DNA from: Marivita sp.
GTDB taxonomy: Bacteria > Pseudomonadota > Alphaproteobacteria > Rhodobacterales > Rhodobacteraceae
Length of the DNA: 64,000 nucleotides
Direction: 5' to 3'
Assembly (NCBI RefSeq): GCF_020055635.1
Contig: NZ_JAIPUT010000009.1
Location: 1-64,000, forward strand
Both the position numbers and the translations under genes were made by a program. Positions 23,744-57,251 of the stretch are shown in pieces. Below the pieces are notes generated by a model. The model was not told where the DNA came from. It searched no databases and saw only the letters and a list, made by a program, of their open reading frames with translations. Numbering within the stretch: the stretch's first letter is position 1; each line of letters opens with the position of its first letter.

Positions 23744-23855
23744 GCGGCTTTTCGAAAAGCCGCAGACAGAGCCTTGCAAGGCTCTGATCCGCATTTTCGA
23801 AAATGCGGGCCACCCCGTTTCGAAACGGGGTTTCAAGCCTGTTCGAACAGGCTTG
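23744..23855. repeat. Array of five perfect 20-22 bp palindromes
   Basis: Five different palindromes stand in a row: 23744-23763 GCGGCTTTTCGAAAAGCCGC, 23767-23786 CAGAGCCTTGCAAGGCTCTG, 23789-23808 CCGCATTTTCGAAAATGCGG, 23812-23831 ACCCCGTTTCGAAACGGGGT, and 23834-23855 (22 bp, arms around TTCGAA). Start-to-start distance is 22-23 nt. Each is perfect although the arms differ, and four of five are centred on TTCGAA. The array ends 4 nt before the stop codon of the minus-strand MFS gene. It may act in mRNA end formation or protein binding. Confidence 0.85.
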
Positions 23856-23859
23856 CCCC

Positions 23860-25020
23860 TCATCCCGCGCGCAGGGCCGCACCCCGCCTCAGCACCGGCA
23901 GCAGCCCCAGCGGGACGACGAACAAGAGCACTCCGATCACCAGGAATGACGTCGCCAGCCCGAATCCTTCGGACAGGAATCCCATGAGCGGCGGGCCGAT
24001 GAAGAACCCCGCATAACCCACCACCGAGATCCGCGAGATCGCGTGGCTGCGGTACTGGTTCGGCACCATCCGACCGATCCAGGCATAGGCCATCGGCGCC
24101 ACCACCGACACGCCGAGGCCAAGCACCGAGAAGCCGAGATAGGCGATCCAGAGGGTCGGTGCCGCGGCGGCGATCGAGGCCCCGATGCCTGCCGTGACCG
24201 ACGCCCAGCGGATCACCACGCGCTCGGACACCCGGTTGGCGACGACCTGCCCGGTCAACCGCCCGACCGCCATCGTGATCCCCAGAAGCGCCGGACCCAG
24301 CGCCCCCTGCGCCGCCCCCGCCCCCAGGTTGCGCTCAAGATGCAGGGCCGACCAGCCTTCGGTCGCCTGTTCCGACATGAAGGCGATCAGGATGATGGCC
24401 CCGCCCGGCAGCAGCAGCGTCCAGGGCAGCGGCGCGACCGTGGCACCCTCGGGTTCGTGCGCGGGATCGGCCACGGGCGCAGCCCTGGCCTGCAGCGCCA
24501 GAAGCGCGATCAGGACGCCCGATCCCGTCAGGATCATGTCTGGACCAAGGCCCGCCTCGCGCGCCAGCCCCGTGGCAAGCGCGCAGGCGGCATAGGCCAC
24601 CGAGAAGACCGCGTGATTGAGGTTCATCAGGCTGCGCCGCACCTGCGCCTCGAGCGCGCTCACGCGGGCGTTCATCGACACGTCGAGCGTGCCGGAGGCC
24701 ATCGTCACGCAGAGCATCGCCAGTGTGAAACTGACACCGCCATAGGTGTGCCCCGGCAGGAACGTGGCCCCCGCCAGCAGCACCGTCAGGACCGCCAGCG
24801 CCCTTGGACCCAGCCCGCGCTCGGCCAGCGGCGCCAGCCACATCGCCAGCACCGCGCCGACCGAGGTGATCAGGAGCGCCACGCCGAACTGTCCGTCCGA
24901 CAGGCCGATCTGCGGCTTGAGCACCGGCACGAGGGCCGCGAAACTGCCCCAGAAGACACCCACGGCGGCAAAGCCGGCCGCCGGGCCGCGGCTGATGTAA
25001 AGGTCACGCAAGAGGCTCAT
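23860..25020 (-). CDS. MFS transporter
   Basis: 386 residues from the ATG at 25020 (the longer frame adds 14 polar residues). Twelve membrane helices in two halves with a central loop rich in Pro, Ala and Glu near residue 195. The fold and GxLxD/DVSMNARVSALEAQ features fit a small sugar/drug MFS branch similar to predicted fucose- or arabinose-type permeases, but the substrate cannot be told. A palindrome array begins 4 nt after its stop codon. The gene faces away from rplY. Confidence 0.85.
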   Translation of the reverse strand: MSLLRDLYISRGPAAGFAAVGVFWGSFAALVPVLKPQIGLSDGQFGVALLITSVGAVLAMWLAPLAERGLGPRALAVLTVLLAGATFLPGHTYGGVSFTLAMLCVTMASGTLDVSMNARVSALEAQVRRSLMNLNHAVFSVAYAACALATGLAREAGLGPDMILTGSGVLIALLALQARAAPVADPAHEPEGATVAPLPWTLLLPGGAIILIAFMSEQATEGWSALHLERNLGAGAAQGALGPALLGITMAVGRLTGQVVANRVSERVVIRWASVTAGIGASIAAAAPTLWIAYLGFSVLGLGVSVVAPMAYAWIGRMVPNQYRSHAISRISVVGYAGFFIGPPLMGFLSEGFGLATSFLVIGVLLFVVPLGLLPVLRRGAALRAG

Positions 25021-25191
25021 ATCGCTGCCAGTGCCACGGGGCGGGGGACCGGTCCAGCCCACAAAGCAACCGAAAGCGGCAAAAACTGCGATCTTGTGTC
25101 TTGTCTTGGCGCCCGAACCGGTCTATCGCGCGGGCTTCACGCGGGGTGACAGCCTTGGAGGCACCCTGCCCTTACATATTGGAGACACATC

Positions 25192-25839
25192 ATGGCTGGA
25201 GAGATTCCTGATCTCGAAGCTCTGGAACGGACGGGGACAGGCAAGGGCGCCGCTCGTCAGGCACGCCGCGACGGCATGGTTCCGGGCATTGTATTCGGTG
25301 GCGACAACGACCCGCTGCCGATCAACCTTCCCTTCAACGTCCTGCTGGCGCGCCTGAAGAAAGGCCGTTTCAAGTCGACCCTGTTCAACCTCAAGGTTGA
25401 CGGTCACGAAGACGTCCGCGTGATCTGCCGCGACGTGCAGCGCGACGTGGTGAAGGACCTGCCGACCCATGTCGACCTGATGCGCCTGCGCCGGACGTCG
25501 AAGATCAACCTCTTCATCCCGGTCGAGTTCATCAACCACGAAGCGGCCCCCGGTCTCAAGAAGGGTGGCGTGATGAACGCCGTGCGCCCGGAAGTCGAAC
25601 TGGTCGTGACCGCCGGTGACATCCCCGAGAAGCTGACCGTGGACCTGACCGGTCTCGAAATCGGCGACACGGTGACGATCTCTGCGATCACCCTGCCCGA
25701 AGGCACCAAGCCGACGATCGACCGCGATTTCGTGATCGCGAACATCTCGGCCCCGTCCGGCCTGCGCGCCGCGGAAGATGCCGAAGCCGAGGAAGCCGAC
25801 GCGGACGAGGTTCCCGCAACCGAACAGTCCGACGACTGA
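25192..25839 (+). CDS. rplY: 50S ribosomal protein L25 (general stress protein CTC)
   Basis: 215 residues, the long CTC form. The N-terminal part (about 1-95) is the L25 5S-rRNA-binding domain ([22 protein letters not shown]), followed by the C-terminal domain (about 100-195) and an acidic tail ([17 protein letters not shown]). L25 binds 5S rRNA in the large subunit. In relatives it is often followed by pth; here pth is 2.5 kb downstream with three unrelated genes between, and a terminator directly after rplY. Confidence 0.96.
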
Positions 25840-25862
25840 TCCCGCCGGGCCTCATGGTTCGA

Positions 25863-25893
25863 ACGGCCTCGCCCCATGGGCGGGGCCGTTTTC
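25863..25893 (+). terminator. Rho-independent terminator of rplY
   Basis: ACGGCCTCGCCC (25863-25874) pairs with GGGCGGGGCCGT (25878-25889) at 11 of 12 positions around a 3-nt loop, followed by a short T-run. It starts 24 nt after the rplY stop. Confidence 0.75.
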
Positions 25894-26035
25894 GTTCAGG
25901 GGGGATGTGCAGGCGGAGACTGTGCGCTCTGACTGCGTCGGGGTCCGCGCGGGGGCCGGATCAGGGTCTGAGTCCGAGGCCGGTTGACGGCTTTCGCAAC
26001 CATGGCGAAGGCTTCCTGGCGCTCCCGCAGAAGCC

Positions 26036-26452
26036 TTATCCGTCTCGTCCGGGTTCGGTTGGATCGTTTGAGAAGATCGCGATTTTGTTGCCCTGCGGAT
26101 CGCGCAGGTAGCCGACATAGAAACGCGCCCCGTAGGACGCGCGGAAACCGGGCTGACCCGCGTCCGAACCGCCTGCGGCAAGCGCGGCAGAGTGAAGGTC
26201 GCGCACCTGCTGCTGAGTGCGCGCCTCGAATGCGATCATCGCACCGTTGCCGGCCGAGGCCGGGCCTCCGTCAAAGGGGGTCTTGACGTAGAAATCGGGC
26301 AAAGCGGCCGGCTGACCGGGTTGCAGGGGCAGCGCATAGCTGAGGCCCTCGGGCCCTTCCTCAAGCGCATACCCAAGGGCTGGCAGGACCGCCGAGTAAA
26401 ACTGCCGCGCGCGCGTGATGTCATCGGCCCCGACGGTAACATAGGCAATCAT
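26036..26452 (-). CDS. VOC-family protein (glyoxalase/bleomycin-resistance fold)
   Basis: 138 residues with the paired beta-alpha-beta-beta-beta pattern of the vicinal oxygen chelate fold: MIAYVTVGADDITRARQFY at the start, MIAFEARTQQQVRDLHSAAL in the middle and YVGYLRDPQGNKIAIFSND at the end. Family members bind a metal and act on small electrophiles or bind antibiotics. The specific role cannot be read. It lies 60 nt upstream of nothing obvious on its 3' side and 61 nt after the monooxygenase-like gene on the same strand, so the two may share a transcript. Confidence 0.88.
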   Translation of the reverse strand: MIAYVTVGADDITRARQFYSAVLPALGYALEEGPEGLSYALPLQPGQPAALPDFYVKTPFDGGPASAGNGAMIAFEARTQQQVRDLHSAALAAGGSDAGQPGFRASYGARFYVGYLRDPQGNKIAIFSNDPTEPGRDG

Positions 26453-26513
26453 GCAACCTGTCCCTTCCTTGCACGTCCGGCCAATTCCCGGCCGGTGCCG
26501 TGGATCATCCGGG

Positions 26514-26819
26514 TCATGCGACCCCGGATATTTCGTAGGCGCGTTGAAGCCCCGCCGTCGCTGTTCCCCAGGACGACGCGCGCGTTCGATGCCTGTGAAA
26601 CTCGAACGCCTCTTTGTCGAGGAAGCACTCCTCTACCTGCCAAATCAAAGGGTCATCCGTCTGGAAGACATCGAAGGACAGACACCCGGGTTCCGCCCGC
26701 GTGAGGCGGATGTGCTCTGAAAGATGCTCTTGCACGAGTTCGGCGTCGCGCTCCGACCCGCAAATCAGGCGTCCCGTCAACCGCACCTGACCAGCACTGG
26801 CATCCGTTTTGGCACCCAT
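26514..26819 (-). CDS. ABM-family (antibiotic biosynthesis monooxygenase-like) protein
   Basis: 101 residues from the ATG at 26819, which has an AGGAG site 8 nt upstream (a start 12 codons earlier has none). The ferredoxin-like ABM fold is recognisable: VRLTGRLICGSERDAELV, HIRLTRAEPGCLSFDVFQTDDP and EECFLDKEAFEFHRHRT. Such small dimeric proteins often act on quinones or as stress-linked oxygenases without cofactors. The function here is unknown. It lies divergent from chrA. Confidence 0.85.
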   Translation of the reverse strand: MGAKTDASAGQVRLTGRLICGSERDAELVQEHLSEHIRLTRAEPGCLSFDVFQTDDPLIWQVEECFLDKEAFEFHRHRTRASSWGTATAGLQRAYEISGVA

Positions 26820-26993
26820 GTCACGACTCCTTTTCGTTCGGGCCGAGCCTAGCATGGGCTCGGAGCGACAACAAAGTTCCGCTGGCCCGATGCTTCAAGA
26901 GATGACGTCCCGACAAAAAGACCACCCCCCGACTTCGGATATCAGCGCGACGCGACATCCTGCGCGGGATCTGTCAATGAGGGTCAGATTGTC

Positions 26994-28283
26994 ATGTTCC
27001 TGAAACGCAGATCAGAGACACCGCCCCTCATGTCGCCCACGATTGCCCAGATCTTCGTCGTCTTCCTGAAAATCGGGCTGCTGTCCTTCGGTGGACCGGC
27101 GGCACAGATCGCGCTGATGCACCGGATGCTGGTGGACGAGCGCGACTGGCTGACGGAAAAGCAATTCCTGAACGCGCTCAGCTTTTGCATGTTGCTGCCG
27201 GGGCCGGAGGCGATGCAGCTGGCCACCTATGCGGGCTGGCGGTTGCAGGGCGTGTTGGGCGGGCTGATCGCGGGGCTGCTCTTCGTGCTGCCGGGGGCGG
27301 CGGTGATCTTTGCGCTGGCGCTGCTCTACGTGACCTATGGCGACCTGCCGCTGGTCGATACGCTGTTTCTGGGCGTACAGGCGGTGGCGGTGGTGATCGT
27401 GGTCGAGGCTTTGCTCAAGCTGTCCAGACGCGCGTTGCACGGGCGGGCGCATTGGGTGCTGGCGGGGCTGGCCTTTGTCGGGATCTTCTTTTTCGCGGTG
27501 CCGTTCCCGGTGATCGTTCTGGCGGCAGGCGTTTATGGCGCGCTGATGGCTGGGTCAGACGCGGCCCCGGCCCTGCCCGTCACGGTTTCGGCCGGGCGCA
27601 GTCTGGGCACGATCGGGATCGGTCTGGCGATCTGGGGCCTGCCCGTGCTGGCGGTGGACGCGGCGTTCAACGGCACGATCCTGACCGAGATCGCGCTCTT
27701 CTTTTCCAAGCTGGCCGTCGTGACATTCGGCGGCGCCTACGCGGTGCTGGCCTACATGGCGCAGGACGTGGTGGTGCAGTATGGCTGGCTGACCCCGACC
27801 GAGATGATGGACGGGTTGGGATTGGCCGAAACCACCCCCGGCCCGCTGATCCTTGTCACCCAGTTCGTAGGCACCTTGGCGGCCTTCCGGGAGGGTGGCT
27901 ACGGGCTGGCCGTGGCAGGCGGTCTGATGACGCTCTGGGTGACCTTCGTGCCCTGCTTCCTGTGGATCTTTGTCGGCGCGCCCTACATCGACTGGATTTC
28001 CGCGCAGCCGCGCCTGAACGGTGCCTTGCGCGCAATCACGGCGGCGGTGGTGGGCGTGATCCTGAACCTGTCGCTGTGGTTCGCGCTGCATGTGGTATTC
28101 GGCACGGTCGCGGAAACGCAGGTCGGAGTGCTGCGGCTCTGGCTGCCGGATGCGGCCACGTTGAACTGGCACGCGATGGCTCTGATCGCGCTGTCGGCGG
28201 GCCTGCTCCTGCGGCTGCATCTGGCGATTGGCTGGGCCCTGGGCCTTTCGGCAGCGGCGGCATTGGTCTTGGCGCAGTTTTGA
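26994..28283 (+). CDS. chrA: Chromate transporter, two-domain ChrA
   Basis: 429 residues with two homologous CHR domains (about 10-190 and 210-425). The signature FLKIGLLSFGGPAAQIALM lies near residue 20, and its counterpart FFSKLAVVTFGGAYAVLAYM near 235. About ten to twelve membrane helices. ChrA exports chromate from the cytoplasm and gives resistance. I keep the ATG at 26994 because a GAGGG site lies 9 nt before it; the ATG 12 codons later has none. It is a single gene without chrB or a regulator beside it. Confidence 0.94.
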   Translation: MFLKRRSETPPLMSPTIAQIFVVFLKIGLLSFGGPAAQIALMHRMLVDERDWLTEKQFLNALSFCMLLPGPEAMQLATYAGWRLQGVLGGLIAGLLFVLPGAAVIFALALLYVTYGDLPLVDTLFLGVQAVAVVIVVEALLKLSRRALHGRAHWVLAGLAFVGIFFFAVPFPVIVLAAGVYGALMAGSDAAPALPVTVSAGRSLGTIGIGLAIWGLPVLAVDAAFNGTILTEIALFFSKLAVVTFGGAYAVLAYMAQDVVVQYGWLTPTEMMDGLGLAETTPGPLILVTQFVGTLAAFREGGYGLAVAGGLMTLWVTFVPCFLWIFVGAPYIDWISAQPRLNGALRAITAAVVGVILNLSLWFALHVVFGTVAETQVGVLRLWLPDAATLNWHAMALIALSAGLLLRLHLAIGWALGLSAAAALVLAQF

Positions 28284-28358
28284 CCATCGGCTTTTGCCCT
28301 TGGCCCGAGTTTCGCCTAGAGAGGGGCAACCGCTTTGCAGGATGGAGCACGGGCAGCG

Positions 28359-29066
28359 ATGAAACTCTTTGTGGGTCTGGGGAATCCGGGCGCGAAATAC
28401 GCGAGGAACCGGCACAATATCGGCTTCATGGCGATGGACCGGATCGCATCGGATCATGGCTTTGCGCCGTGGAAATCAAAGTTTCAGGGCGAGGCGACCG
28501 AAGGGCGGCTGGGCAATGACAAGGTTCTGCTCCTGAAGCCCGGAACGTTCATGAACCGCTCGGGCCAGTCGGTGCAGGCGGCAATGCAGTTCTACAAGCT
28601 GGAGCCCTCGGACGTGGTGGTCTTCCACGACGAGTTGGACCTCGCCCCGGGCAAATGCCGGGTCAAGCAGGGCGGCGGCCATGCGGGCCACAACGGCTTG
28701 CGCTCGATCCACGGCCATATCGGCGAGGCGTACGGCCGCGTGCGGCTGGGCATCGGGCATCCCGGTCACAAGGATGCTGTGGCGGGATACGTGCTGCACG
28801 ATTTTCCCAAGGCGGACGAAGAGTGGCTGGATGACCTGCTGCGCGGGATCGCCGATGGCGCGCCGCAACTGGCGGATGGGGATTCCGGCAAGTTCATGAA
28901 CGCCGTGGCGCTGCGCGTGGCGCCCGCCCGGTCGTCGAAAACGCCGGCGACGCAAGCGAAGGCGGAAGCTCCGAAGCCCGAGCCGAAGCCAGAGCCGAAA
29001 CCCGAAGCAGCGCCAGAACCCGACACCCGCAACCCCTTTCAAAGGCTGGTGGACCGGTTCCGGTGA
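28359..29066 (+). CDS. pth: Peptidyl-tRNA hydrolase
   Basis: 235 residues from the ATG at 28359, giving the standard start MKLFVGLGNPG. Pth releases peptides from prematurely dropped peptidyl-tRNA. The catalytic His (RNRHNIGFMAMD), Asp (HDELDLAPGKCRVKQGG) and Asn residues (MNRSG, GGHAGHNGLRS) are present. The C-terminus has an extra, disordered Lys/Pro/Glu-rich part (KAEAPKPEPKPEPKPEAAPE) after about residue 195, seen in relatives but absent from the E. coli enzyme. It follows chrA by 75 nt on the same strand. Confidence 0.96.
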   Translation: MKLFVGLGNPGAKYARNRHNIGFMAMDRIASDHGFAPWKSKFQGEATEGRLGNDKVLLLKPGTFMNRSGQSVQAAMQFYKLEPSDVVVFHDELDLAPGKCRVKQGGGHAGHNGLRSIHGHIGEAYGRVRLGIGHPGHKDAVAGYVLHDFPKADEEWLDDLLRGIADGAPQLADGDSGKFMNAVALRVAPARSSKTPATQAKAEAPKPEPKPEPKPEAAPEPDTRNPFQRLVDRFR

Positions 29067-29193
29067 CATCGACCCTCGGGCGCAAAGCGTCCTCGGGCCT
29101 GGGATGCCCACAGTTTTTCACGGGCGCTGGGTGGCATGGGCGGACGATCCCGCCTAGGTTCAGATGAAACCACCGCATGACAGGAGGCCCCCG

Positions 29194-29577
29194 ATGGAAC
29201 CGGACGACGCAATCAACGTGATGGGTGGCCCGCTTGGGTCGTGTTCGACAGAGCCGCTGACCGGGTTCTTCAGGGATGGCCATTGCAACACCTGCGCTGC
29301 CGACACGGGAAGCCACACGGTGTGCGCGGTGATGACGGCGGAATTCCTGGCCTATTCGAAATACGTCGGCAACGACCTGAGCACCCCTGTTCCGCAGTTC
29401 CGCTTTCCGGGGCTCAAGCCCGGCGATCACTGGTGCCTGTGCGCGTCACGGTTCCTGCAAGCCCATGACGAGGGCTGCGCGCCCATGGTCAACCTTGCCG
29501 CGACGCACAGACGGGCGCTCGACATCGTGCCGATGCGGGTTCTGGAACAGTACGATATCGACTCGTCCGACGTCTGA
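29194..29577 (+). CDS. DUF2237 family protein
   Basis: 127 residues from the ATG at 29194, which has an excellent AGGAGG site. The DUF2237 pattern is clear: NVMGGPLGSCSTEPLTGFF, a Cys-rich NTCAADTGSHTVCAVMT, SKYVGNDLSTP and GLKPGDHWCLCASRF. The many conserved Cys suggest metal or iron-sulfur binding. The function of this family is not known. It ends a few bases before the convergent LuxR gene. Confidence 0.93.
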   Translation: MEPDDAINVMGGPLGSCSTEPLTGFFRDGHCNTCAADTGSHTVCAVMTAEFLAYSKYVGNDLSTPVPQFRFPGLKPGDHWCLCASRFLQAHDEGCAPMVNLAATHRRALDIVPMRVLEQYDIDSSDV

Positions 29578-29582
29578 CCGGC

Positions 29583-30113
29583 TCATGACGCCTTGTCCAT
29601 CTGCGGTCCCGGATCGGATCCGGACAGCGCGATGGGGTCGCCCATCAGTTCGTCGATGAACAGGCTGAGCAATTGCGGGCGGCCCGACACCCCCGCCTTG
29701 CGATAGATCGCGTTGGTCTGCGCCTTTACGGTGCCTTCGGAGGTGCTGCGCAGCCCGGCGATGTCGGCCGTGCTCAGCCCCTTGATCGAAAACAGCGCCA
29801 CGTCCTTTTCGGCGGGGGTCAGTTCCCATTCGGCAAAGCGTTCCTGCAACACGTCCATGAAGGCGCCCGACGCCAGACGCAGGCTTGCCTCGGCGGCGCG
29901 CTGCCGCTTGAGCGAGCGGACCATGAGCGTCGCACTGACGACCATGCCAAGGATCAGGCCGATCACCGCTCCGATCTGGGCCAGTTCGTAATAGACCCAG
30001 GCGATCGGAGAGGACGCGATGCCCAGCATGCTGCCAAGGATGTCCCACAAGAGGAACAGGCCGCTGGCCAATTGCAGCGCGCCAAGGGGGATCAGGACGA
30101 TCCAGATCCTCAC
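29583..30113 (-). CDS. Membrane-anchored LuxR-type regulator
   Basis: 176 residues from a GTG. Two membrane helices (about 5-26 and 44-66) are followed by a short linker and a LuxR-type helix-turn-helix (about 96-152: LTPAEKDVALFSIKGLSTAD, then SEGTVKAQTNAIYRKAGV). There is no receiver domain, so it probably senses a signal through the membrane part or a partner protein and binds DNA while at the membrane. It is the last gene of a minus-strand operon, 30 nt after the second poly-Asp gene, and likely regulates that operon. Four related half-sites at 31401-31457 upstream of the operon fit such a role. Confidence 0.82.
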   Translation of the reverse strand: MRIWIVLIPLGALQLASGLFLLWDILGSMLGIASSPIAWVYYELAQIGAVIGLILGMVVSATLMVRSLKRQRAAEASLRLASGAFMDVLQERFAEWELTPAEKDVALFSIKGLSTADIAGLRSTSEGTVKAQTNAIYRKAGVSGRPQLLSLFIDELMGDPIALSGSDPGPQMDKAS

Positions 30114-30143
30114 AGGCCAACCGGTGCCCGGAGGGACGTATGA

Positions 30144-30590
30144 TCAATCGTCGTCATCGTCATCTCCGCCGCCACCGCCGCCATCGTCATCATCGCCGCC
30201 GTCATCATCGTCGTCGCCGTCGTCATCATCGTCGTCGCCGTCGTCATCGTCGTCATCGCGGTCGTCATCGTCATCATCGCGGTCGTCGTCCCGGTCATCG
30301 CGATCATCATTATCATCGTCGCGATCATCGCCGTCGCCGCCGCGATCCGAGCGGTCGACATAGTCCCGCAGGATCGCCCCGGTCGCGGGATTGAGAATGA
30401 TCTCGCGCCGGCCGCGCGGGCCTGTCGCCACGATGCGCGTCCGGCCCAGCAGCGTGCGGCCAAGCGTGATGCGCCGATAGCCCTGCCGCCTGAGTTGATC
30501 GATCACCTGATCCTGGGCTGTCTGCGCGAGCACATCGACCGGAAAGGCGACCCCGGCCAGGAGGCCCGCAACAAGCTGTCTTCGTTTCAT
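30144..30590 (-). CDS. Exported PepSY-like protein with poly-Asp tail
   Basis: 148 residues with a signal peptide that starts MKRRQLVAGLLAGVAF and is cleaved after VLA. Residues 24-77 resemble one PepSY-type unit (QDQVIDQLRRQGYRRITLGR, then a strand REIILNPATGAILRDYV). From about residue 78 to the end the chain is nearly all Asp with Arg and Gly (for example DDDDDDRDDDDDDGDDDDDD). Such a tail can bind many divalent cations. It is a paralogue of the next gene upstream. It has a GGAG ribosome site. Codons in the tail are GAC/GAT runs, so length could vary by slippage. Function unknown; a calcium- or metal-binding surface role is inference. Confidence 0.8.
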   Translation of the reverse strand: MKRRQLVAGLLAGVAFPVDVLAQTAQDQVIDQLRRQGYRRITLGRTLLGRTRIVATGPRGRREIILNPATGAILRDYVDRSDRGGDGDDRDDDNDDRDDRDDDRDDDDDDRDDDDDDGDDDDDDGDDDDDGGDDDDGGGGGGDDDDDD

Positions 30591-30603
30591 TCTCGAACTC
30601 CAG

Positions 30604-30632: not shown

Positions 30633-30654
30633 TGTTCTTCAGCTATCAGACGTT

Positions 30655-31543: not shown

Positions 31544-32764
31544 TCAGCCCATGTCGAATCCCAAGTGTTTGGCGACGGTAAAGATGTCCTTGTCGCCGCG
31601 TCCGCACATGTTCATGCAGATGATGTGATCCTTGGGCAGGTCGGGCGCGATCTTCATCACATGGGCCAATGCGTGGCTGGGCTCCAGCGCCGGGATGATG
31701 CCTTCCATCTCGCAACACAGCTGGAACGCCTCCAGCGCCTCGGCGTCGGTGATCGACACGTATTGCGCGCGGCCAATGTCGTGCAGCCAGGCGTGTTCCG
31801 GCCCGATGCCCGGATAATCGAGCCCTGCCGAAATGCTGAACCCTTCGAGGATCTGGCCGTCATCGTCCTGCAAGAGATAGGTGCGGTTGCCATGCAGCAC
31901 ACCCGGCCGCCCCCCGGTCAGGGACGCGCAATGCTCCATCTTGGCATTCACACCCTTGCCGCCCGCTTCGACGCCGATGATGCTGACCTCCTTGTCGTCA
32001 AGGAAGGGATAGAACAGGCCCATCGCGTTCGACCCGCCCCCGATGGCGGCAATCAGCGTGTCGGGCAGACGGCCCTCGGCCTCGTGCATCTGATCGCGGA
32101 CCTCCTTGCCGATGATCGACTGGAAATCGCGGACCATCGCCGGATAGGGGTGCGGGCCGGCCACGGTGCCGATGCAGTAGAACGTGTCGCGCACATTGGT
32201 CACCCAGTCGCGCAGCGCGTCGTTCATCGCGTCCTTGAGCGTGCCGCGACCGGATGTGACCGGGATCACTTCGGCGCCGAGCAGTTTCATCCGGAAGACG
32301 TTGGGCTGCTGGCGCTCGACGTCATGCGCACCCATGTAGACGACGCATTTCAGGCCGAACTTGGCGCAGACGGTGGCGGTGGCCACGCCGTGCTGACCGG
32401 CGCCCGTCTCGGCGATGATGCGGGTCTTGCCCATGCGGCGGGCCAGGATGATCTGGCCCAGCACGTTGTTGATCTTGTGCGCGCCGGTGTGGTTGAGTTC
32501 GTCGCGCTTCATGTAGACCTTCGCGCCGCCGAGCCGCTCGGTCAGGCGTTCGGCGTGATAGAGCGGCGACGGGCGGCCCACGTAATGCTTCCAGAGGAAG
32601 TCCATCTCGGACCAGAAACTCTCGTCGGTCTTGGCGCGCTCGTACTGCTCTTCGAGTTCGAGAATGAGCGGCATCAGGGTTTCGGAGACAAAGCGTCCGC
32701 CGAAGATGCCGAACCGGCCCTTTTCGTCGGGACCGGTCATGAAGCTGTTGAATAGATCGTTCAT
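31544..32764 (-). CDS. trpB: Tryptophan synthase beta chain
   Basis: 406 residues from the ATG at 32764, which has a GAGAGG site; the upstream extension of the frame reads through palindromes and is not protein-like. It joins indole and serine with pyridoxal phosphate. The PLP Lys is in [16 protein letters not shown], the phosphate loop in GGGSNAMG, and the acid switch in [13 protein letters not shown]. trpA lies 14 kb away and trpF is not in the window. A 76-residue gene precedes it, separated by a palindrome array. Confidence 0.97.
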
Positions 32765-32825: not shown

Positions 32826-32917
32826 CAAGCGCCTTCGAAGGCGCTTGGGACCGCGTTTCGAAACGCGGTTTTCAAGCCAATTCGAATTGGCTTGGGCAAG
32901 CGATTTCGAAATCGCTT
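32826..32917. repeat. Array of four perfect 20-22 bp TTCGAA palindromes
   Basis: Four palindromes with different arms: 32826-32847 (22 bp, AAGCGCC arms), 32850-32869 ACCGCGTTTCGAAACGCGGT, 32873-32894 (22 bp, AAGCCAA arms) and 32898-32917 AAGCGATTTCGAAATCGCTT. All are centred on TTCGAA, with 23-24 nt between starts. The array abuts the stop codon of the 76-residue gene (32918-32920). Two of its units resemble two of the array at 23744-23855, in the same order. Confidence 0.85.
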
Positions 32918-33148
32918 CTACCGGACGCGCCGGATCGGCTGATCGTTGCAGAACACCACGTAATGTCGTCCGTTGCGCACCGCCTGGAATCCACGTTCCT
33001 CGACGGCGGCGACAAAGGCGTCGCGGCCCACGAGCCGTTCGACATCGCGGATCTGCCGCTTGACCACGCCGCCCTTCTGCGCCTCTGCCGAGGACAGCAT
33101 CTGGGTCAGCCAGATTTCGGGGGTCAGGTGATCGGGGAGTCGTGTCAT
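32918..33148 (-). CDS. Conserved small protein upstream of trpB
   Basis: 76 residues with no signal or membrane segment. The start reads MTRLPDHLTPEIWLTQMLSS, then AEAQKGGVVKRQIRDVERLV and a closing AVRNGRHYVVFCNDQPIRRV. Proteins of this type occur next to trpB in related genomes and are sometimes mislabelled as phosphoribosylanthranilate isomerase, but the length rules that enzyme out. The sequence suggests a small two-layer fold, perhaps nucleic-acid binding. The function is unknown. The stop codon touches the palindrome array. Confidence 0.75.
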   Translation of the reverse strand: MTRLPDHLTPEIWLTQMLSSAEAQKGGVVKRQIRDVERLVGRDAFVAAVEERGFQAVRNGRHYVVFCNDQPIRRVR

Positions 33149-35011: not shown

Positions 35012-35012
35012 G

Positions 35013-38403: not shown

Positions 38404-38430
38404 GCGGTGCGTGCAAGCACGCACCCTACG
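38404..38430. repeat. GTGCGTGC extragenic palindrome, copy 1
   Basis: GGTGCGTGC (38406-38414) and GCACGCACC (38417-38425) around AA, followed by CTACG. It begins 5 nt after the acyl-CoA dehydrogenase stop. The same element occurs at 63041-63070. Confidence 0.65.
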
Positions 38431-49974: not shown

Positions 49975-50607
49975 CTACTTCGTGCCGAACATCCGGTCGC
50001 CCGCGTCACCCAGGCCGGGCACGATATAGCCGTTCTCGTTCAGACGCTCGTCAAGGGACGCGGTGACGATGGGCACGTCGGGATGTGCCTCCTTCATGCG
50101 GGCGACGCCTTCGGGGGCGGCAAGCAGGCAGAGGAAGATGATGTTCTTGGCGCCTGCCTCCTTGAGCAGGTCGATCGCGGCCGCCGAACTGTTGCCGGTG
50201 GCGAGCATCGGATCGACGACAATCGTAATGCGATCCTCGAGTTGCGACGGGACCTTGAAGTAATACTGCACCGGCTTGAGTGTGGCCTCGTCGCGGTAGA
50301 GACCGACAAACCCCACCCGCGCCGCCGGGATCAGGTCGAGGATGCCGTCGAGCAGCCCGTTGCCCGCGCGCAGGATCGAGATCAGGGCAAGCTTCTTGCC
50401 GTCGATCACCGGGGCGTCCATCTCGCACATCGGGGTTTCGATGCGCTTGGTGGTGAGCGGCAGGTTGCGTGTCACCTCGTAGGCCAGCAAGTGGCTGATT
50501 TCGCGCAGCAATTGGCGGAACGACTTGGTCGAGGTGTCTATTTCGCGCATCAGGCTCAGCTTGTGCTGCACCAGCGGGTGGTCGACGATGGTCAGGTGTT
50601 GGGTCAT
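49975..50607 (-). CDS. upp: Uracil phosphoribosyltransferase
   Basis: 210 residues. It converts uracil and PRPP to UMP. The PRPP loop is [20 protein letters not shown], and the uracil site includes the late [18 protein letters not shown], the family hallmark. It is the last gene of the salvage operon and overlaps add by 4 nt. Together with cdd, deoA and deoB it returns bases and sugar phosphate to the cell. Confidence 0.97.
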
Positions 50608-51647
50608 GTGCGCTCCAGTCGTTTCAGGACACGGGCCCGGGTGTCCTCGTCGCAGAAGGCCGCGCGGGCGGCGGTGTCGTTTATCTCGGCGAAAACAGCC
50701 TCGTCCCAGCCAAAGCTGCGGGCAAGCTTGAGGTATTCGTCGCGCATCGTGGTATGAAAGAAGGGCGGATCGTCGGTCGAGACCGTGACCTTCACCCCGC
50801 GTTGCCGCAGCTTTTCAATGGGGTGCGCGGCAAGGTTCGGGTAGACGTTCAGGTTCACGTTGGAACCCGGACAAATCTCGAGGGTAATTTCGTTTTCCAC
50901 AAGCTCGTCCACAAGCGCCAGATCGTTGATTGCATGGACGCCGTGGCCGATGCGTTCGACCTTCAGGTCCTCGACAGCATCCCGCACCGATTGCGCACCG
51001 CCCCATTCACCCGCATGCGCGGTCAGGCGCAATCCGGCTTCACGTGCCATGTCAAAGCTGTAAGCAAAGTCCCTGGGTTTGCCCTTCATCTCGTCCCCGG
51101 CAATGCCGAAGCCGACGATCCAGTCACCCGCGGTTTCAGCAGCACAAAGCGCCGAGGCCTTGGCTTTGTCAGGGCCGAAATGGCGGATGCATGTGACGAT
51201 GCCGCGCAGGATGATGCCGGTGTCGCGTTCGGCCTCAATGGCGGCGTCGCGGATGGCGTGCAGGTATTCGCGCCATGCGCCCACATCGCCACCGCCGCAA
51301 AAATCCGGCGACAGGAAGGTTTCGGAATAGACCACGTCATTTGCGGCGCTTTCTTCAAGCACCGCCTTGGTCAGGCGCGCGTAATCCTCGGGTGTCTTGA
51401 GCACGCTTGTCGCGGCTTCGTAGACGCTCAGGAAATGCACGAAATCGCGGAAGGCATAGCTGCCATCGGCTTTGAACACGCCGTTGAGGTTGACAGATTT
51501 GTCCTTGGCGAGCCCCCGGATGAAGGCAGGCGGCGCCGCGCCTTCGTGATGCAGATGCAGTTCGACCTTGGGCAGGCGCATGATGCGGTCAAGCTGTTCT
51601 TCGTCCATGCCGCGGCGCATGCGTTCGCGCTGTTCTTCATCCATCAC
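50604..51647 (-). CDS. add: Adenosine deaminase
   Basis: 347 residues. It deaminates adenosine or deoxyadenosine to inosine. The zinc ligands are present: [11 protein letters not shown] (first His pair), [14 protein letters not shown] (third His and catalytic Glu), ERIGHGVHA (His) and STDDPPFF (Asp). The first 20 residues are charged and variable; a later start is possible (for example at [11 protein letters not shown]). It overlaps deoB and upp by 4 nt each. Confidence 0.95.
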
Positions 51648-52852
51648 AGGAAACTCCGCCCCGATCCTCTTGGCTCAACACGCAGATGCGCGGCGATGCT
51701 GGCAGCCACGTCCACAAATCCGACATGGCCAATTTCGCCCGTGCCGGCCCCGGCAATCAGCACGGGCACGCGTTCGCGGGTGTGGTCCGTGCCGATCCAC
51801 GTCGGGTCGTTGCCATGATCGGCGGTGATGAGCAACAGGTCATCGGGTTTGAGGCGCGGCAGCAGCCTGCCCAACGCGCCGTCGAACCATTCCAGCGCGC
51901 CTGCATAGCCGGACACATCGCGGCGGTGGCCGTACTTGCTGTCGAATTCGACGAAATTGGCAAAGATCAGAGCCCCGTCTGGGGCGGTGTCGATCTGATG
52001 CGCGAGGAGATCCATCAGCCTGGCATCGGCGCCCTTGTGAACCTCGTCGATCCCCGCCATCGAAAAGATGTCGCCGATCTTGCCAATACCGACAACGCGT
52101 TGGCCGGCCTCCTGCACCCAGTTGGTGAGCACGGGTCGGGGCGGCGCGATGGCATAGTCGCGGCGATTGGTGGTGCGTTCGAACCGGCCCTCCTGTCCGA
52201 CAAAGGGCCGCGCGATCACCCGCCCGATCTTGCGGTCATGGCACATCGGCGCGAGGTCCTGGCAGAGCTTGAGCAGACGGTCGAGGCCAAACGCCTCTTC
52301 ATGGGCGGCGATCTGGACGACGCTGTCGGCAGAGGTGTAGCAGATCGGTTTGCCGCTGCGCAGATGCTCGGCCCCGAAGGTTTCGATCACCTTGATCCCG
52401 TTGCTGTGGCAATTTCCAAGAATGCCATCCGTGCCCGCGAGGGCGCAGATCCGGTCGGTGATCTCGGGCGGGAAGGACGGCACAGTGTCCGGAAGATAGG
52501 TCCAGTCCCACGGCACCGGCAGGCCCGCGAGTTCCCAATGACCCGAGGGCGTATCCTTGCCTCTGGAGATCTCGGTCGCGGCACCCCAAAGCCCGGTGGG
52601 TGATGCATCAAGGCCCGGTGCGGTTTCGCCACATGCCAGTTCGACGGCCCGGCCCAGGCCCAGCGCGTCGAGTGTCGGCAGGCGCAAGGGTCCGCTGCGC
52701 CCGTTCTCGGCGCGGCCTGCCGCGCAGGCCTGGGCGATGTGCAGAACGGTGTTGGCCCCGGTGTCGGCTGTGCCGTCATTGAAGAAAAGATCGGCGTCCG
52801 GCGCGCCGCCGATGCCGACGGAATCCATGACGACAAGGAAAGCGCGGCTCAT
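51644..52852 (-). CDS. deoB: Phosphopentomutase
   Basis: 402 residues, alkaline-phosphatase fold. It turns (deoxy)ribose-1-phosphate into the 5-phosphate. The metal sites are FLVVMDSVGIGGAPDA at the start, DTGANTVLHIA with the acceptor region, and LLLITADHGNDPTWIGTDHTRE at the end with the His/Asp ligands. It is the central gene of the operon, overlapping deoA (upstream) and add (downstream) by 4 nt each. Confidence 0.97.
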   Translation of the reverse strand: MSRAFLVVMDSVGIGGAPDADLFFNDGTADTGANTVLHIAQACAAGRAENGRSGPLRLPTLDALGLGRAVELACGETAPGLDASPTGLWGAATEISRGKDTPSGHWELAGLPVPWDWTYLPDTVPSFPPEITDRICALAGTDGILGNCHSNGIKVIETFGAEHLRSGKPICYTSADSVVQIAAHEEAFGLDRLLKLCQDLAPMCHDRKIGRVIARPFVGQEGRFERTTNRRDYAIAPPRPVLTNWVQEAGQRVVGIGKIGDIFSMAGIDEVHKGADARLMDLLAHQIDTAPDGALIFANFVEFDSKYGHRRDVSGYAGALEWFDGALGRLLPRLKPDDLLLITADHGNDPTWIGTDHTRERVPVLIAGAGTGEIGHVGFVDVAASIAAHLRVEPRGSGRSFL

Positions 52853-54141
52853 GTGATCTGCTCCAGAACCAGCTTGGGCGCGGTTGCAGGCCCGTCGCCC
52901 AGAGTGATCGCGGCGCGCACCGCGTTTTCGGCCGCGTCGGCCTGCCCTTCGCGGGCGGCATGGATGCGGGCCAGCGGTTGGCCTTTGGTGATGGTGTCCC
53001 CGATGGAGACCACATCGCCGAGCCCCACGGCGGGATCGACCACGTCGGATTCCACCTGTCGCCCGCCGCCCAGCGACACGACGGTCAGGCCCAGCGCTTC
53101 TCCGTCAATGGCGGTGACGGTGCCGGAGGCAGGCGCGGTCACTTCGCGGATCACCGGCGCTTCGGGCAGGAAACGCACCCAGTCCTCGACGAAATGCACC
53201 GGGCCGCCCATCGCGTAGACCATCGCCCCGAATTTCTCGGCTGCGGCGCCGCTGCTGATGGCGGTGCGGATCTTTGCGGGTCCGTCACCGAGCCCGGCCT
53301 GGTCCAGCAAGACCCCCCCCAGCGCAACCGTCAAGTCGAGGAGCCGCCCGGACGCCGCCCCGGTCAGGACGCGCATCACGTCGACCACTTCAAGCGCGTT
53401 GCCGAGGCTGGGGGCCAGGGGTTGCGACATGTCGGTGATCAGCGCGGATGTCGGACAGCCGGTGGCGTTCGCCGTATCGACCAGCGCGCGGGCCAGCGCA
53501 CGGGCGCTGTCTGCGGATTTCATGAAGGCACCCGAGCCGCATTTGACGTCGAGCACCAGCCCTTCGAGCCCTGCCGCCAGTTTCTTGGACAGGATCGAGG
53601 CGGTGATCAGGTCAAGGCTTTCGACTGTCGCGGTCACGTCGCGGATCGCGTACAGCCGCTTGTCGGCGGGGGCGATATCGGCGCTGGCGCTGACAATGGC
53701 GCAGCCAACCTTGGCCACCACCTGGCGGAACTGGTCTTCGGTCAGCGTGGTGCGGAAACCGGGAATGGCCTCGAGCTTGTCGAGCGTCCCCCCGGTATGG
53801 CCCAAGCCCCGCCCCGAGATCATCGGCACGTAGACGCCGCAGGCTGCCAGAGCGGGTGCAAGGATCAGGCTGACGCAATCGCCGACGCCGCCGGTCGAAT
53901 GCTTGTCCAGTACCGGCGCGTCGAGATCCCAGCGCAGGACCTTGCCACTGTCGCGCATGGCGGCTGTAAACGCGGCGCGGCCGCTGTCGCCCAGCCCGGT
54001 CAGGCAGACCCCCATCGCAAAGGCCCCGGCCTGCGCATCGGTGACTGAGCCATCGGCAAGCCCCTGCGCGAACCACGAAAGCGACTCGGCATCCGGCGTG
54101 CCGCCCTTGCGCAGCGTGGCGATGATGGCCCTTGCATCCAT
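52849..54141 (-). CDS. deoA: Thymidine phosphorylase
   Basis: 430 residues. It splits thymidine or deoxyuridine with phosphate. The signature KHSTGGVGDCVSLILAPALA (phosphate site) lies near residue 79, then SGRGLGHTGGTLDKLEAIPG, and the middle DVKCGSGAFMKSADSARALA. The C-terminal alpha/beta domain has a lipoyl-like turn (ITKGQPLARIHAAREGQADA), normal for the family. It overlaps cdd by 1 nt and deoB by 4 nt. No dedicated nucleoside transporter is in the window. Confidence 0.96.
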   Translation of the reverse strand: MDARAIIATLRKGGTPDAESLSWFAQGLADGSVTDAQAGAFAMGVCLTGLGDSGRAAFTAAMRDSGKVLRWDLDAPVLDKHSTGGVGDCVSLILAPALAACGVYVPMISGRGLGHTGGTLDKLEAIPGFRTTLTEDQFRQVVAKVGCAIVSASADIAPADKRLYAIRDVTATVESLDLITASILSKKLAAGLEGLVLDVKCGSGAFMKSADSARALARALVDTANATGCPTSALITDMSQPLAPSLGNALEVVDVMRVLTGAASGRLLDLTVALGGVLLDQAGLGDGPAKIRTAISSGAAAEKFGAMVYAMGGPVHFVEDWVRFLPEAPVIREVTAPASGTVTAIDGEALGLTVVSLGGGRQVESDVVDPAVGLGDVVSIGDTITKGQPLARIHAAREGQADAAENAVRAAITLGDGPATAPKLVLEQIT

Positions 54142-54533
54142 CAGCTTTTATCCATGTGGCCTGCGTCGAACGCGCCGGGCAGCAGATCGCCCACCGTCGT
54201 CTTGAACTCGGTGCCGTCCAGTGTCGCGAGTGTCACCGGCACATCCTTGGCCGCGAACTCGGCCAGTTTCTGGCGGCAACCGCCACAGGGTGGCACGGGT
54301 GACGGGCTGTCGGCGATCACGTAGGCTTCGGTGATGACGGTCGCGCCCGCCGCCACCATCGCGGCAATCGCGCCGGCTTCGGCACAGGTGCCTTCGGGAT
54401 AGGCCACGTTCTCGACATTGCAGCCGCTGAAGACGGTGCCGTCGGCGGCGCGCAGGGCCGCACCCACCTTGAACCGCGAATAAGGCGCATAGGCGTTTTC
54501 CCGAACCGCGTGCGCTGCGTCCTTCAATTCCAT
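54141..54533 (-). CDS. cdd: Cytidine deaminase
   Basis: 130 residues, the small tetrameric form. It deaminates cytidine and deoxycytidine. The zinc site is complete: GTCAEAGAIAAMVAAGA (Cys and catalytic Glu) and SPVPPCGGCRQKLAEF (two Cys). The substrate loop starts APYSRFKVGAALRA. It is the first gene of the five-gene minus-strand operon cdd-deoA-deoB-add-upp, and the gene directly behind it overlaps by 1 nt. Confidence 0.96.
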   Translation of the reverse strand: MELKDAAHAVRENAYAPYSRFKVGAALRAADGTVFSGCNVENVAYPEGTCAEAGAIAAMVAAGATVITEAYVIADSPSPVPPCGGCRQKLAEFAAKDVPVTLATLDGTEFKTTVGDLLPGAFDAGHMDKS

Positions 54534-54651
54534 CTCTGTCCCGCCCCATTGTTGTGACCTGCATGATTGCGAGGCCGCGACGCCGAATGCAAGGGCTCGC
54601 GGGAACCTCTTGGCGTGTCGTCGCGTTCCGCCTCAAACCAAGGAGTACAAC

Positions 54652-54852
54652 ATGCCGATGCGAAACAGCATTGCGCTTGATCCATCGCTTGGATTGGGCC
54701 CCGACCCGGAAGAAGAGATGACCGAAGTACAGGCGGTCGAGCTGCGCGAGTTGACCAGCGAGGCGGACGAGCCCTTCGATGCCAGCCTGACGCGCCGCCA
54801 GGCCGAACGCCGGATCGCGCATCTTAAAGAATATCTGAATTCAGCTTCGTGA
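54652..54852 (+). CDS. DUF3072 small protein
   Basis: 66 residues from the ATG at 54652, which has an AAGGAG site 8 nt upstream. The DUF3072 signature is the second half, MTEVQAVELRELTSEADEPF then DASLTRRQAERRIAHLKEYL. It looks like a short helical hairpin, possibly binding a partner protein or nucleic acid. The function of this family is unknown. It stands alone, divergent from the salvage operon and 80 nt before maeB. Confidence 0.87.
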   Translation: MPMRNSIALDPSLGLGPDPEEEMTEVQAVELRELTSEADEPFDASLTRRQAERRIAHLKEYLNSAS

Positions 54853-54931
54853 ACGAGCGCTGCCCCGGCGCTCTTTCCCTCCGCACCGTTGTGGTTTACC
54901 CCTAAACCAAACACGTGCGGGGGGAATTTTC

Positions 54932-57211
54932 ATGTCGGACGGCACCAACGAGTCACTGCGCCAGGCGGCGCTGTTCTATCACGAGCATCCCAAGCCGGGT
55001 AAGCTTGAAATCCGCGCCACCAAGCCGCTTGCCAACGGGCGTGACCTGTCCCGCGCCTACAGTCCCGGCGTGGCCGAAGCCTGTCTCGAGATCAAGGCCG
55101 ATGCGACCAACGCGGCGCGCTACACCGCCAAGGGCAACCTTGTTGCGGTGGTCACCAACGGCACCGCCGTCCTCGGGCTTGGCAATATCGGCGCGCTGGC
55201 CTCCAAGCCGGTGATGGAGGGCAAGGCGGTCCTGTTCAAGAAATTCGCCAATATCGACTGTTTCGATATCGAGGTTAACGAGAGCGACCCCGAAAAGCTG
55301 GCCGATATCGTCTGCGCGCTAGAGCCGACCTTCGGCGCGATCAACCTCGAAGACATCAAGGCCCCCGATTGTTTCATCGTCGAAAAGCTATGCCGCGAGC
55401 GGATGAACATCCCGGTCTTTCACGACGACCAGCACGGCACCGCCATCGTGGTGGGTGCGGCCGCGACCAATGCGCTGCACGTGGCGGGCAAGGCGTTCGA
55501 GGACATCAAGATCGTGTCCACGGGCGGCGGGGCTGCGGGCATCGCCTGCCTGAACATGTTGGTCAAGCTGGGCGTGAAGCGCGAAAACATCTGGCTCTGC
55601 GACATTCACGGGCTGGTCTATGAAGGCCGGGCCGAGGACATGAACCCGCAAAAGGCGGCCTTTGCGCAGAACAGCGACCTGCGCGGCCTGGATGACGTGA
55701 TCGACGGGGCGGACCTGTTCCTTGGCCTGAGCGGCCCCAAGGTGCTGAAGCCCGAGATGGTTGCGCGGATGGCGGATCGCCCGATCATCTTTGCGCTGGC
55801 CAACCCGACGCCGGAGATCCTGCCCGACGAGGTGCGCGAGGTGGCACCGGGTGCGATCATGGCGACGGGACGCAGCGATTTTCCCAACCAGGTCAACAAC
55901 GTGCTGTGTTTCCCGTTCATCTTTCGCGGCGCATTGGACGTCGGCGCGACCGAGATCAATGACGACATGCAAATCGCCTGCGTCGAGGGCATCGCCAAGC
56001 TGGCCCGCGCCACCACAAGCGCAGAGGCGGCGGCGGCCTATCATGGCGAACAGCTCACCTTCGGGTCGGAATACCTGATCCCGAAACCCTTCGATCCGCG
56101 GCTGTCCGGCGTGGTTTCGACCGCCGTGGCCAAGGCCGCGATGGAATCGGGTGTCGCGCTCCGGCCGCTCGACGACCTGGCGGCCTACAAGGCCAAGCTG
56201 GATGCAAGCGTCTACAAGTCCGCGCTGCTCATGCGGCCGGTGTTCCAGGCGGCCGCCACCGGCGCACGTCGAATCGTCTTTGCCGAGGGCGAGGACGAGC
56301 GGGTGTTGCGGGCCGCGCAAGCCATTCTCGAGGAAACCACCGAGACCCCGATCCTGATCGGCCGTCCTGACGTGATCGCCACGCGCTGCGAGCGGTTGGG
56401 TCTGGAGATCCGTCCTGAACGCGACTTCACGCTGGTGAACCCGGAAAACGACCCCCGCTACCGCGACTACTGGGAGACCTACCACAAGATCATGGCGCGG
56501 CGCGGCGTGACGCCCGATCTTGCCCGCGCGATCATGCGCACCAACACCACCGCGATCGGCGCGGTCATGGTACATCGCGGCGAGGCAGACAGCCTGATCT
56601 GCGGCACCTTCGGCGAATTCCGCTGGCACCTGAACTATGTCACGCAGGTTTTGGGCACAGCCGAGCACACTCCGCATGGCGCGCTGAGCATGATGATCCT
56701 CGAAGACGGGCCGCTTTTCATTGCCGACACGCATGTGCGGTCCCTCCCGACGCCCGAGGAACTGGCCCAGACGGCGATCGGCGCGGCGCGGCATGTGCGG
56801 CGCTTCGGTCTCGCGCCGAGCATCGCCTTCTGTTCGCAATCGCAGTTCGGCAACCAGGAGGAAGGCTCGGGCAAACGGCTGCGCGAGGCGATTGCGCTGC
56901 TCGACGCGGAACCGCGCGATTTCTGCTACGAGGGCGAGATGAACGTCGATGCGGCGCTCGATCCGGACCTGCGCGAACGCACCCTGCCCGGCAACCGGAT
57001 GGCCGGCACCGCAAACGTGCTGATCTTCGGGCACGCCGACGCGGCCTCGGCGGTGCGCAACATCCTCAAGATGCGGGCGGGCGGGCTCGAGGTGGGGCCG
57101 ATCCTGATGGGCATGAGCAACCGCGCGCATGTGGTCACACCGGGCATCACGCCGCGCGGCTTGCTGAACATGGCGGCGATCGCCGGAACGCCGGTTGCGC
57201 ATTACGGGTAA
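54932..57211 (+). CDS. maeB: NADP-dependent malic enzyme with phosphotransacetylase domain
   Basis: 759 residues, the long two-domain form. The N-terminal malic enzyme part (about 1-430) has [31 protein letters not shown] and the NAD-binding [18 protein letters not shown]. The C-terminal part (about 440-755) is a phosphotransacetylase-like domain, usually regulatory rather than catalytic. It decarboxylates malate to pyruvate with NADPH. It is a single gene followed directly by a palindrome group. Confidence 0.96.
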
Positions 57212-57251
57212 ACGAGGCGTCGACGCCTCGTGATTTCGGGTTGACCCGAAA
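57212..57251. repeat. Palindrome pair after maeB
   Basis: A perfect 20-bp palindrome ACGAGGCGTCGACGCCTCGT (57212-57231) begins at the base after the maeB stop codon. An 18-bp one, TTTCGGGTTGACCCGAAA (57234-57251), follows, with 8-bp arms around TG. Start distance 22 nt. A GACCCG/CGGGTC pair continues to 57257. The layout matches the arrays at 23744 and 32826. Confidence 0.75.

Follow-up and report, generated by a model that had tools for sequence, protein, structure and literature searches.

Repetitive extragenic palindromes (REPs) and bacterial interspersed mosaic elements (BIMEs), which include the GTAG and CGTC super-families, are short palindromes that occur singly or in groups, in many copies, and mostly between convergent or co-oriented genes (PMC3733652). 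REPs are located close to the 3′ ends of open reading frames, often at a distance of less than 20 bp (PMC3733652), and E. coli REPs whose distance to a stop codon is 15 nt or less reportedly cause ribosomes to stall (PMC12306157). In a survey of 118,019 genomes, perfect inverted repeats are enriched after stop codons, and near terminators their spacers vary more than their arms (PMC13155455). Here, we describe arrays of short palindromes in the first 64,000 nucleotides of a Marivita contig (C59:1-64000, the window), which is part of a 4.94-Mb draft genome that we assign to the Marivita group. The named sequences most related to its TrpB come from Marivita strains and from metagenome-assembled genomes of the Roseobacter group. 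The arrays directly follow stop codons and belong to a repeat family that is set by the symmetry, centre, and spacing of its units, and not by a consensus sequence.

The window contains three arrays, none of which has an assigned strand. Array 1 (23744..23855) is formed of five perfect palindromes with lengths of 20, 20, 20, 20, and 22 bp, whose centres are, in order, TTCGAA, TTGCAA, TTCGAA, TTCGAA, and TTCGAA. Array 2 (32826..32917) is positioned between a gene for a 76-amino-acid protein and trpB, and has four units of 22, 20, 22, and 20 bp. Array 3 (57212..57251) is located between convergent genes and has two GTCGAC/GTTGAC-centred units, one of which is a 20-bp palindrome and the other an 18-mer mismatched only at its two central bases. 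The three runs of palindromes named in the original prediction are therefore present, with ten perfect units and one that is imperfect only centrally. The centre is exactly TCGA in nine of the eleven units, as the prediction had counted, and the remaining two have TGCA and TTGA. The distances of 0–4 nt that it gave between arrays and stop codons were measured as 4 nt to the stop of a major facilitator superfamily (MFS) transporter gene for array 1 (minus strand), 0 nt to the stop of the 76-amino-acid gene for array 2 (minus strand), and 0 nt to the stop of a malic-enzyme gene for array 3 (plus strand). The order of ACC(C/G)CG and AAGCC units that arrays 1 and 2 were said to have in common is real, and the proposed relatedness of the arrays is supported. 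Arrays 1–3 contain all of the window's perfect palindromes whose arms are 9 bp or longer; there are ten of these, compared to a chance expectation with a mean of 1.0 (order-3 Markov model, five simulations). No Rfam covariance model matches the window at the gathering threshold.

Further arrays, which the original prediction expected, occur throughout the host genome, where the pattern TTCGAA-N14-22-TTCGAA has 62 matches and the reversed control none. The positions of arrays were analyzed in an 854.5-kb sample of this genome, which consists of the window and extended parts of seven contigs, each of them already seen to carry pattern matches; one stretch ended just past a listed match. Because the stretches were chosen by known matches, the density of arrays in the sample may be overstated, but their position is not. 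Gene calls were made with our own codon-usage caller and not taken from a curated annotation. Near-palindromes with a T..A centre form 29 clusters in the sample, and the 20 clusters with at least two units are considered arrays. Each of the 20 arrays is on the 3′ side of a called stop codon, at a distance of at most 21 nt (median 5 nt); 17 begin within 10 nt of the stop, and four overlap the called gene end by 1–18 nt. Ten arrays are in convergent gaps, nine in co-oriented (tandem) gaps, and one is at the end of a sampled stretch. None of the 115 divergent gaps has an array, compared to 19 of the 407 other gaps (Fisher p 0.011). Among the nine single units in the sample, four are inside genes. 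The mean distance to the nearest stop codon is 4.7 nt for the 19 arrays whose neighbouring genes on both sides are known, whereas random placement of the arrays in their own gaps results in 40 nt. The random mean for the nine tandem arrays is 60 nt, and no value as low as the observed one was reached in 2,000 simulations, either for these nine or for the set of 19. Near-palindromes of all kinds have densities of 3.35 per kb in convergent gaps, 1.34 in tandem gaps, 0.27 in divergent gaps, and 0.18 in genes. The bias toward stop codons that the original prediction proposed is thus strong.

A wider set of 137 distinct arrays with 397 units was collected from the host and its congeners, with units detected by at least seven of nine pairs; many of the loci were chosen by pattern match, so the set is non-random. 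It includes 85 convergent and 40 tandem arrays, seven arrays at contig or stretch ends, four that overlap a called gene, and one in a divergent gap. The median distance to the nearest stop codon is 5 nt for convergent and 7 nt for tandem arrays, with outliers of up to 267 and 441 nt.

The arms of the palindromes differ from unit to unit, and the recurrent parts are the TT-NN-AA (or GTNNAC) centre and, often, an outer AAG/CTT. The main class of units has a TTCGAA, less often a TTGCAA, centre and often an AAG outer end. The second class is centred on GTCGAC and its variants, and its units are either paired, as they are in array 3, or single. The centres of the 397 units are TCGA in 336 cases and TGCA in 15, followed by TTGA, TGGA, TCCA, TCAA, and TCTA. 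The 44 centre-to-centre intervals in the 854.5-kb sample measure 21 nt (two intervals), 22 nt (6), 23 nt (17), 24 nt (12), and 25 nt (7). Within the window, unit starts are 22–25 nt apart. The regular spacing claimed in the original prediction, 22–24 nt or two helical turns, is therefore real in a slightly broader range, whereas strict helical phasing was rejected, because the spacing varies from 21 to 25 nt. No unpaired GTAG or CGTC tag was seen by eye on the TTCGAA-centred units of the 20 sampled arrays, including spacers and flanks; CGTC does occur inside the palindrome of GTCGAC-centred units. Many of the 20 arrays are flanked by G-rich sequence on the side of the stop codon and C-rich sequence on the opposite side (for example, GCGGG ... 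CCCGC), as judged by eye. Such borders could close the row of units into one multi-branched fold.

Gene ends of congeners often have related arrays, in which units were gained, lost, or replaced, and 24 groups of orthologous gene ends with arrays were found, some sites being counted from both sides. Arrays related to array 1 follow the orthologous gene in congeners, with units gained and lost and with compensatory changes, and arrays related to array 2 are present in seven congeners. At C33:90739, after a gene that we take to encode a peroxiredoxin-like protein, two units are kept in 11 species. Among 208 cells of this alignment, 98.1% pair, compared to at most 63.6% in slid controls, and eight cells have changed on both sides versus 2.2 in shuffles, none of 500 of which reached that number. 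Four other congeners do not have this two-unit pair at the site. Two congeners (loci L191 and L201) have at the orthologous site, in place of the two-unit array, one palindrome centred on TTCGTACGAA, which is perfect over 32 bp in L201. The alignment of the trpB site was dropped as evidence of covariation, since an extra unit of genome G007 was misaligned in it and two of the three both-side changes were non-orthologous.

In 55 strict families of orthologous units, 432 of 495 pair positions are invariant, and there are 22 replacements of one Watson–Crick pair by another. Selection on symmetry more than on arm sequence, close to the original proposal, is supported by these changes of both arms together, and the expectation that arms keep their symmetry in relatives holds for most positions across species. 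The centre is less constrained than the arms: it varies in 28 of 66 families (a looser set, in which a few families look like coding matches), whereas of the 495 arm positions in the strict families, 63 vary. Variants that differ only in the centre on unchanged arms include TTCTAA, TTTGAA, TTCCAA, and TTGGAA. The freer drift of the centre to asymmetric states therefore fits a hairpin loop more than the site of a protein dimer.

Arrays have also spread by copying. A copy of array 1 at C58 has four identical units with identical spacers and is part of a 389-column alignment with 84% identity; it is positioned between genes that, to judge from their protein sequences, presumably encode FabF-like and GlnE-like proteins. 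Other arrays of the host also have unit order in common. The recurrence of array 1, with its spacers, at an unrelated C58 gene and the common unit order of other arrays indicate that arrays were copied to new gene ends. In the genus, all 17 genomes surveyed have matches to the pattern, 62 in the host and 8–32 in the 16 others, with 0–4 in controls. In a survey of 394 genomes of the family, the large majority are near control counts, 11 others have at least 20 matches (counted by eye), and the maximum is 114. One of these 11, genome G030, has 33 matches, but its control also has 11. The enriched genera are scattered across the family, and none of 285 genomes from the class outside the family exceeds 17 matches. 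The survey pattern fixes the TTCGAA centre, so arrays with other centres escape it.

The position of arrays in six other genera is similar to that in the host. From 31 rows before the removal of repeats, 25 distinct arrays were obtained, with genes called using the Marivita codon model; 23 of them are in convergent or co-oriented gaps, 1–115 nt from the nearest stop codon, two overlap a called gene, and none is in a divergent gap. Pieces of three other array-rich genera, picked by contig number, contain 2 (G346), 0 (G207), and 5 (G328) non-divergent gaps with at least two near-palindromes of any centre, and targeted loci from such genera did hold arrays. A perfect palindrome centred on TTCGAA or TTGCAA, with arms that are 9 bp or longer, is located no more than about 330 nt upstream of trpB in 10 of 80 named loci: four from Marivita, one from Mameliella, one from Maliponia, three from Sulfitobacter, and one from an unclassified metagenome-assembled genome (MAG). 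Among the loci listed, L163, from a Paracoccaceae MAG, has upstream of trpB a row of hairpins of about 21 nt with odd centres such as CAAATCCTCTTAGAGGATTTG. Its sequence suggests that the arrangement of hairpins in rows may be wider than the TTCGAA centre.

Because of their 3′ position, tight distance to stop codons, compensatory pairing, and freer centre, the arrays are best read as RNA hairpins that stand in series at transcript ends and are mostly bidirectional, a reading that we regard as probable, though well short of certain, from the sequence comparisons. Among the mechanisms offered in the original prediction, this one fits best. Rows of two to five short hairpins would be formed directly after stop codons and would most often be common to two convergent genes. 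Each unit may give rise to an RNA stem of about 8–9 bp with a U-N-N-A loop, and, the unit being palindromic in DNA, transcripts of either strand would form an identical hairpin. The row of hairpins would mark the end of a transcription unit, where RNA polymerase might be terminated or slowed without a U-tract, perhaps with Rho, and/or it might block 3′-to-5′ exonucleases. We infer that the pairing acts in RNA, with termination or protection as its effect.

Several observations weigh against the hairpin reading. A palindromic centre, TCGA or TGCA, is present in 351 of 397 units (88%), which a hairpin loop does not need. Among the 20 sampled arrays, no T-run was seen by eye after TTCGAA-class units, and the spacers are 0–5 nt long. 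The array at C33:88263, which belongs to the GTCGAC class, has TTTTT right after its first hairpin and could be an ordinary terminator; it also has weak covariation, with 97.5% of cells paired, one both-side change, and 48 of 500 shuffles as high. One array of the wider set is divergent and four overlap called genes. Arrays are absent from many orthologous gene ends and are thus not essential there. U-tract hairpins are present at 2 of 10 convergent ends with an array and at 15 of 74 without one (p 1.0). Since the presence of an array is independent of that of a U-tract hairpin, the arrays are not simply the alternative terminator of the genome. The possibility that arrays are Rho-independent terminators is disfavoured by the same independence at convergent pairs and by the missing U-tracts. 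Finally, tandem arrays use fewer G-U pairs than U-tract hairpins of the same sequences (G-U to A-C ratios of 8:5 versus 37:4, Fisher p 0.028), and the pair replacements in arrays do not favour the transition type, as detailed below.

The pair counts bear on whether symmetry is maintained in RNA or in DNA. The symmetry could be partly a mutational by-product, if quasi-palindromes were corrected by template switching during replication; this alternative, which is compatible with hairpins at transcript ends, is a less likely one. RNA hairpins can arise and persist through template switching (PMC8794818). RNA stems tolerate G-U pairs, and do not tolerate the complement, A-C. In arrays, G-U and A-C are in a ratio of 8:5 where the genes are tandem and 12:15 where they are convergent, at low power, and among orthologous changes the ratio is 4:1 and 10:9, respectively. 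In 96 U-tract hairpins from the same sequences it is 37:4, and 13:1 among orthologous single changes; these hairpins were allowed up to two mismatches and stems of up to 12 bp, so the mismatch limits differ from those of array detection. The tandem counts lean toward RNA. The convergent 12:15, in which G-U is no commoner than A-C, agrees with template switching, but it is also expected if two opposite transcripts matter there, and bidirectional use of RNA likewise predicts no excess of G-U. The replacements in the 55 strict families, 9 of transition type and 13 of transversion type, have no bias toward the G-U route, as expected from template switching. For comparison, 79% of the replacements in B. 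cereus terminators are switches between AU and GC (PMC5381666), and the local U-tract hairpins have 7 transition-type and 6 transversion-type replacements. Looser clusterings, with 29:78 (paralogous units and mirrored sites mixed in) and 13:28 (single changes G-U 11, A-C 22), were not used. An early 'unidirectional' class with G-U 7 and A-C 9 was dropped as proof of maintenance in DNA, since strict orientation and more arrays changed the ratio to 8:5. The centre also returns to a palindrome, as template switching would have it: GC is the commonest doubly changed state, present in 7 of 66 families, and AT and TA in none. However, arm sequence itself is kept at some sites: in unit 1 at C33:90739, 8 of 10 pairs are unchanged in 11 species, and the remaining two differ in a single species, where they are G-U. 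Of 10 eligible families, 3 have both a loop and its reverse complement, a raw count without a chance model, and loop inversion is not claimed as a mark of template switching. Template switching alone would not place arrays behind stop codons.

Movement of REP-type palindromes by a transposase or recombination, with copies piling up where they are least harmful and having little function, is an unlikely account of the arrays. The recurrence of four units and their spacers, unchanged, next to an unrelated gene (the C59 and C58 copies), the patchy abundance among genera, and the gain and loss of units between congeners are what such movement would produce, but tandem arrays hug the upstream stop codon beyond mere avoidance of the downstream start, orthologous arrays are kept with compensatory change, and no REP tag was seen in the 20 arrays read by eye. 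It is quite unlikely that the arrays act as a brake on translation, in which ribosomes that terminate at a stop codon are stalled by hairpins no more than 15 nt away, so that the upstream gene is expressed less. The 17 of 20 arrays that begin within 10 nt of the stop codon are inside the distance reported to be effective (PMC12306157); however, one hairpin would be enough for this purpose, and rows of up to five units and their sharing by convergent genes are left unexplained. A multi-site protein target, also offered in the original prediction and taken here as that of a dimeric protein that recognizes TTCGAA in DNA, would explain the TCGA centre of 336 of 397 units and the confinement of spacing to 21–25 nt. 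This explanation is highly improbable, because the varied arms covary as complements, although recognition by a dimer alone would not demand this, the centre is freer to vary than the arms, the spacing is unphased, and no array is present in 115 divergent gaps. Gene conversion or copying between the arms, the remaining mechanism of the original prediction, is a possible alternative. A more speculative combination, which is doubtful, is that of a self-renewing family in Marivita and relatives with symmetry as its only rule, in which TTCGAA-centred DNA copying makes and repairs palindromes and the rows might serve as a U-tract-free, strand-symmetric boundary of transcription for the two members of convergent pairs and for a multi-copy non-coding RNA.

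The putative non-coding RNA is a dispersed, conserved block of about 240 nt (23490..23743, plus strand) that runs straight into array 1. Further copies are at L385-L414, C58:67415-67653, and C55:142925-143164. Matches to the block are present in 16 of the 17 genomes of the genus, 7–11 in each of 15 genomes, one in G007, and none in G010, with some matches being two pieces of one copy. In 24 aligned copies, the core of the block has about 45 nearly invariant bases, and RNAalifold finds little covariation support (3 of 44 pairs). A search of 23300-23900 against Rfam with E up to 5 resulted in four matches, all to microRNA or long non-coding RNA models and far below gathering scores. The block is therefore presented as no more than a candidate RNA. 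Among 35 copies, an array is at the 3′ end of 15 of the 23 that face a convergent gene and of none of the 10 that face a co-oriented gene, two of which carry a single unit. Four of the 35 copies come from loci chosen for an array (12 of 19 without them), and some dozen of them are orthologous copies from a single site, so the copies are not independent. The Fisher p of 0.00035, calculated with 15 of 22 after the exclusion of one single-unit copy, is therefore too small. Some gene calls upstream of the block look like antisense shadows. The counts suggest that arrays go with convergent ends and not with the block itself.

The genes next to the arrays have diverse predicted products. The MFS transporter gene (23860..25062, minus strand), with its stop codon 4 nt from array 1, has an uncertain start codon, and its convergent partner on the far side of the array is a gene for an LldD-like L-lactate dehydrogenase (22253..23419, plus strand). 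The gene adjoining array 2 with its stop codon (32918..33148, minus strand) encodes the 76-amino-acid protein of unknown function, which has no family match in Pfam or NCBIfam. The start of trpB, which encodes the tryptophan synthase beta chain (31544..32764, minus strand), is 61 nt beyond array 2, and a conserved stretch on the trpB side of the array may be a promoter, to judge by the promoter consensus. The gene with its stop codon adjoining array 3 (54932..57211, plus strand) encodes an NADP malic enzyme with a phosphotransacetylase (PTA) domain, whose best NCBIfam model scores under its cut-off, and it is convergent with a gene for a deoxyribodipyrimidine photolyase-related protein (57290..58804, minus strand).

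Two other palindromic elements recur in these sequences. A hairpin GGTGCGTG...CACGCACC follows genes in single copies, unlike the arrays, at 38406-38425 and 63039-63072 of the window and at C33:37104, C55:32238, and C22:4858. The palindrome TGTTTCGCGCGCGAAACA is present in the host at C33:17123 and 94466, at L131:10816, and in L198 near 970; within the loci read, one further genus has it too.

Extragenic palindromes are usually known by their consensus, whereas the family described here is recognized by symmetry, centre, and spacing, and consensus-based repeat finders would therefore tend to split it. Dozens of aligned stems from congeners, with known gene orientation, provide a natural test of RNA selection versus DNA template switching. 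Should the arrays act as transcript ends, these genomes would form many of their gene ends with no U-tract.

No description of such arrays was found in titles and openings of abstracts of the papers listed, in a search mostly without subscription journals. The main text of PMC3733652 has no mention of Rhodobacter, Roseobacter, Ruegeria, Dinoroseobacter, Paracoccus, or TTCGAA, and that of PMC13155455 none of Rhodobacter, Roseo, or TTCGAA. Like REPs and BIMEs, the arrays are formed of short palindromic units in many extragenic copies, located at 3′ gene ends in convergent or co-oriented gaps and rarely in divergent ones. In contrast to the conserved family sequence and unpaired GTAG or CGTC end tag of REPs and BIMEs, the arrays have differing arms and no tag that was seen, and their palindromes, most of them perfect, are centred on TT-NN-AA and stand in rows of two to five. 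Because neither tag nor consensus was found, we describe the arrays as a REP-like variant outside the GTAG and CGTC super-families. They resemble intrinsic (Rho-independent) terminators, some of which are bidirectional, in having GC-containing hairpins after genes, in the sharing of some of these by convergent genes, and in compensatory evolution (PMC5381666), but differ from them in that the main class has no U-tract, the hairpins are in series, and G-U pairs appear to be few. Perfect stems and compensatory replacements are common to the arrays and to RNA hairpins maintained by template switching (PMC8794818); however, that study treats RNA genes such as rRNA, whereas the arrays are a dispersed repeat family of gene ends with a preferred centre. 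The inverted repeats of the 118,019-genome survey have narrow peaks at +50 to +80 bp after the stop codon (PMC13155455), whereas the arrays start at a median of +5.

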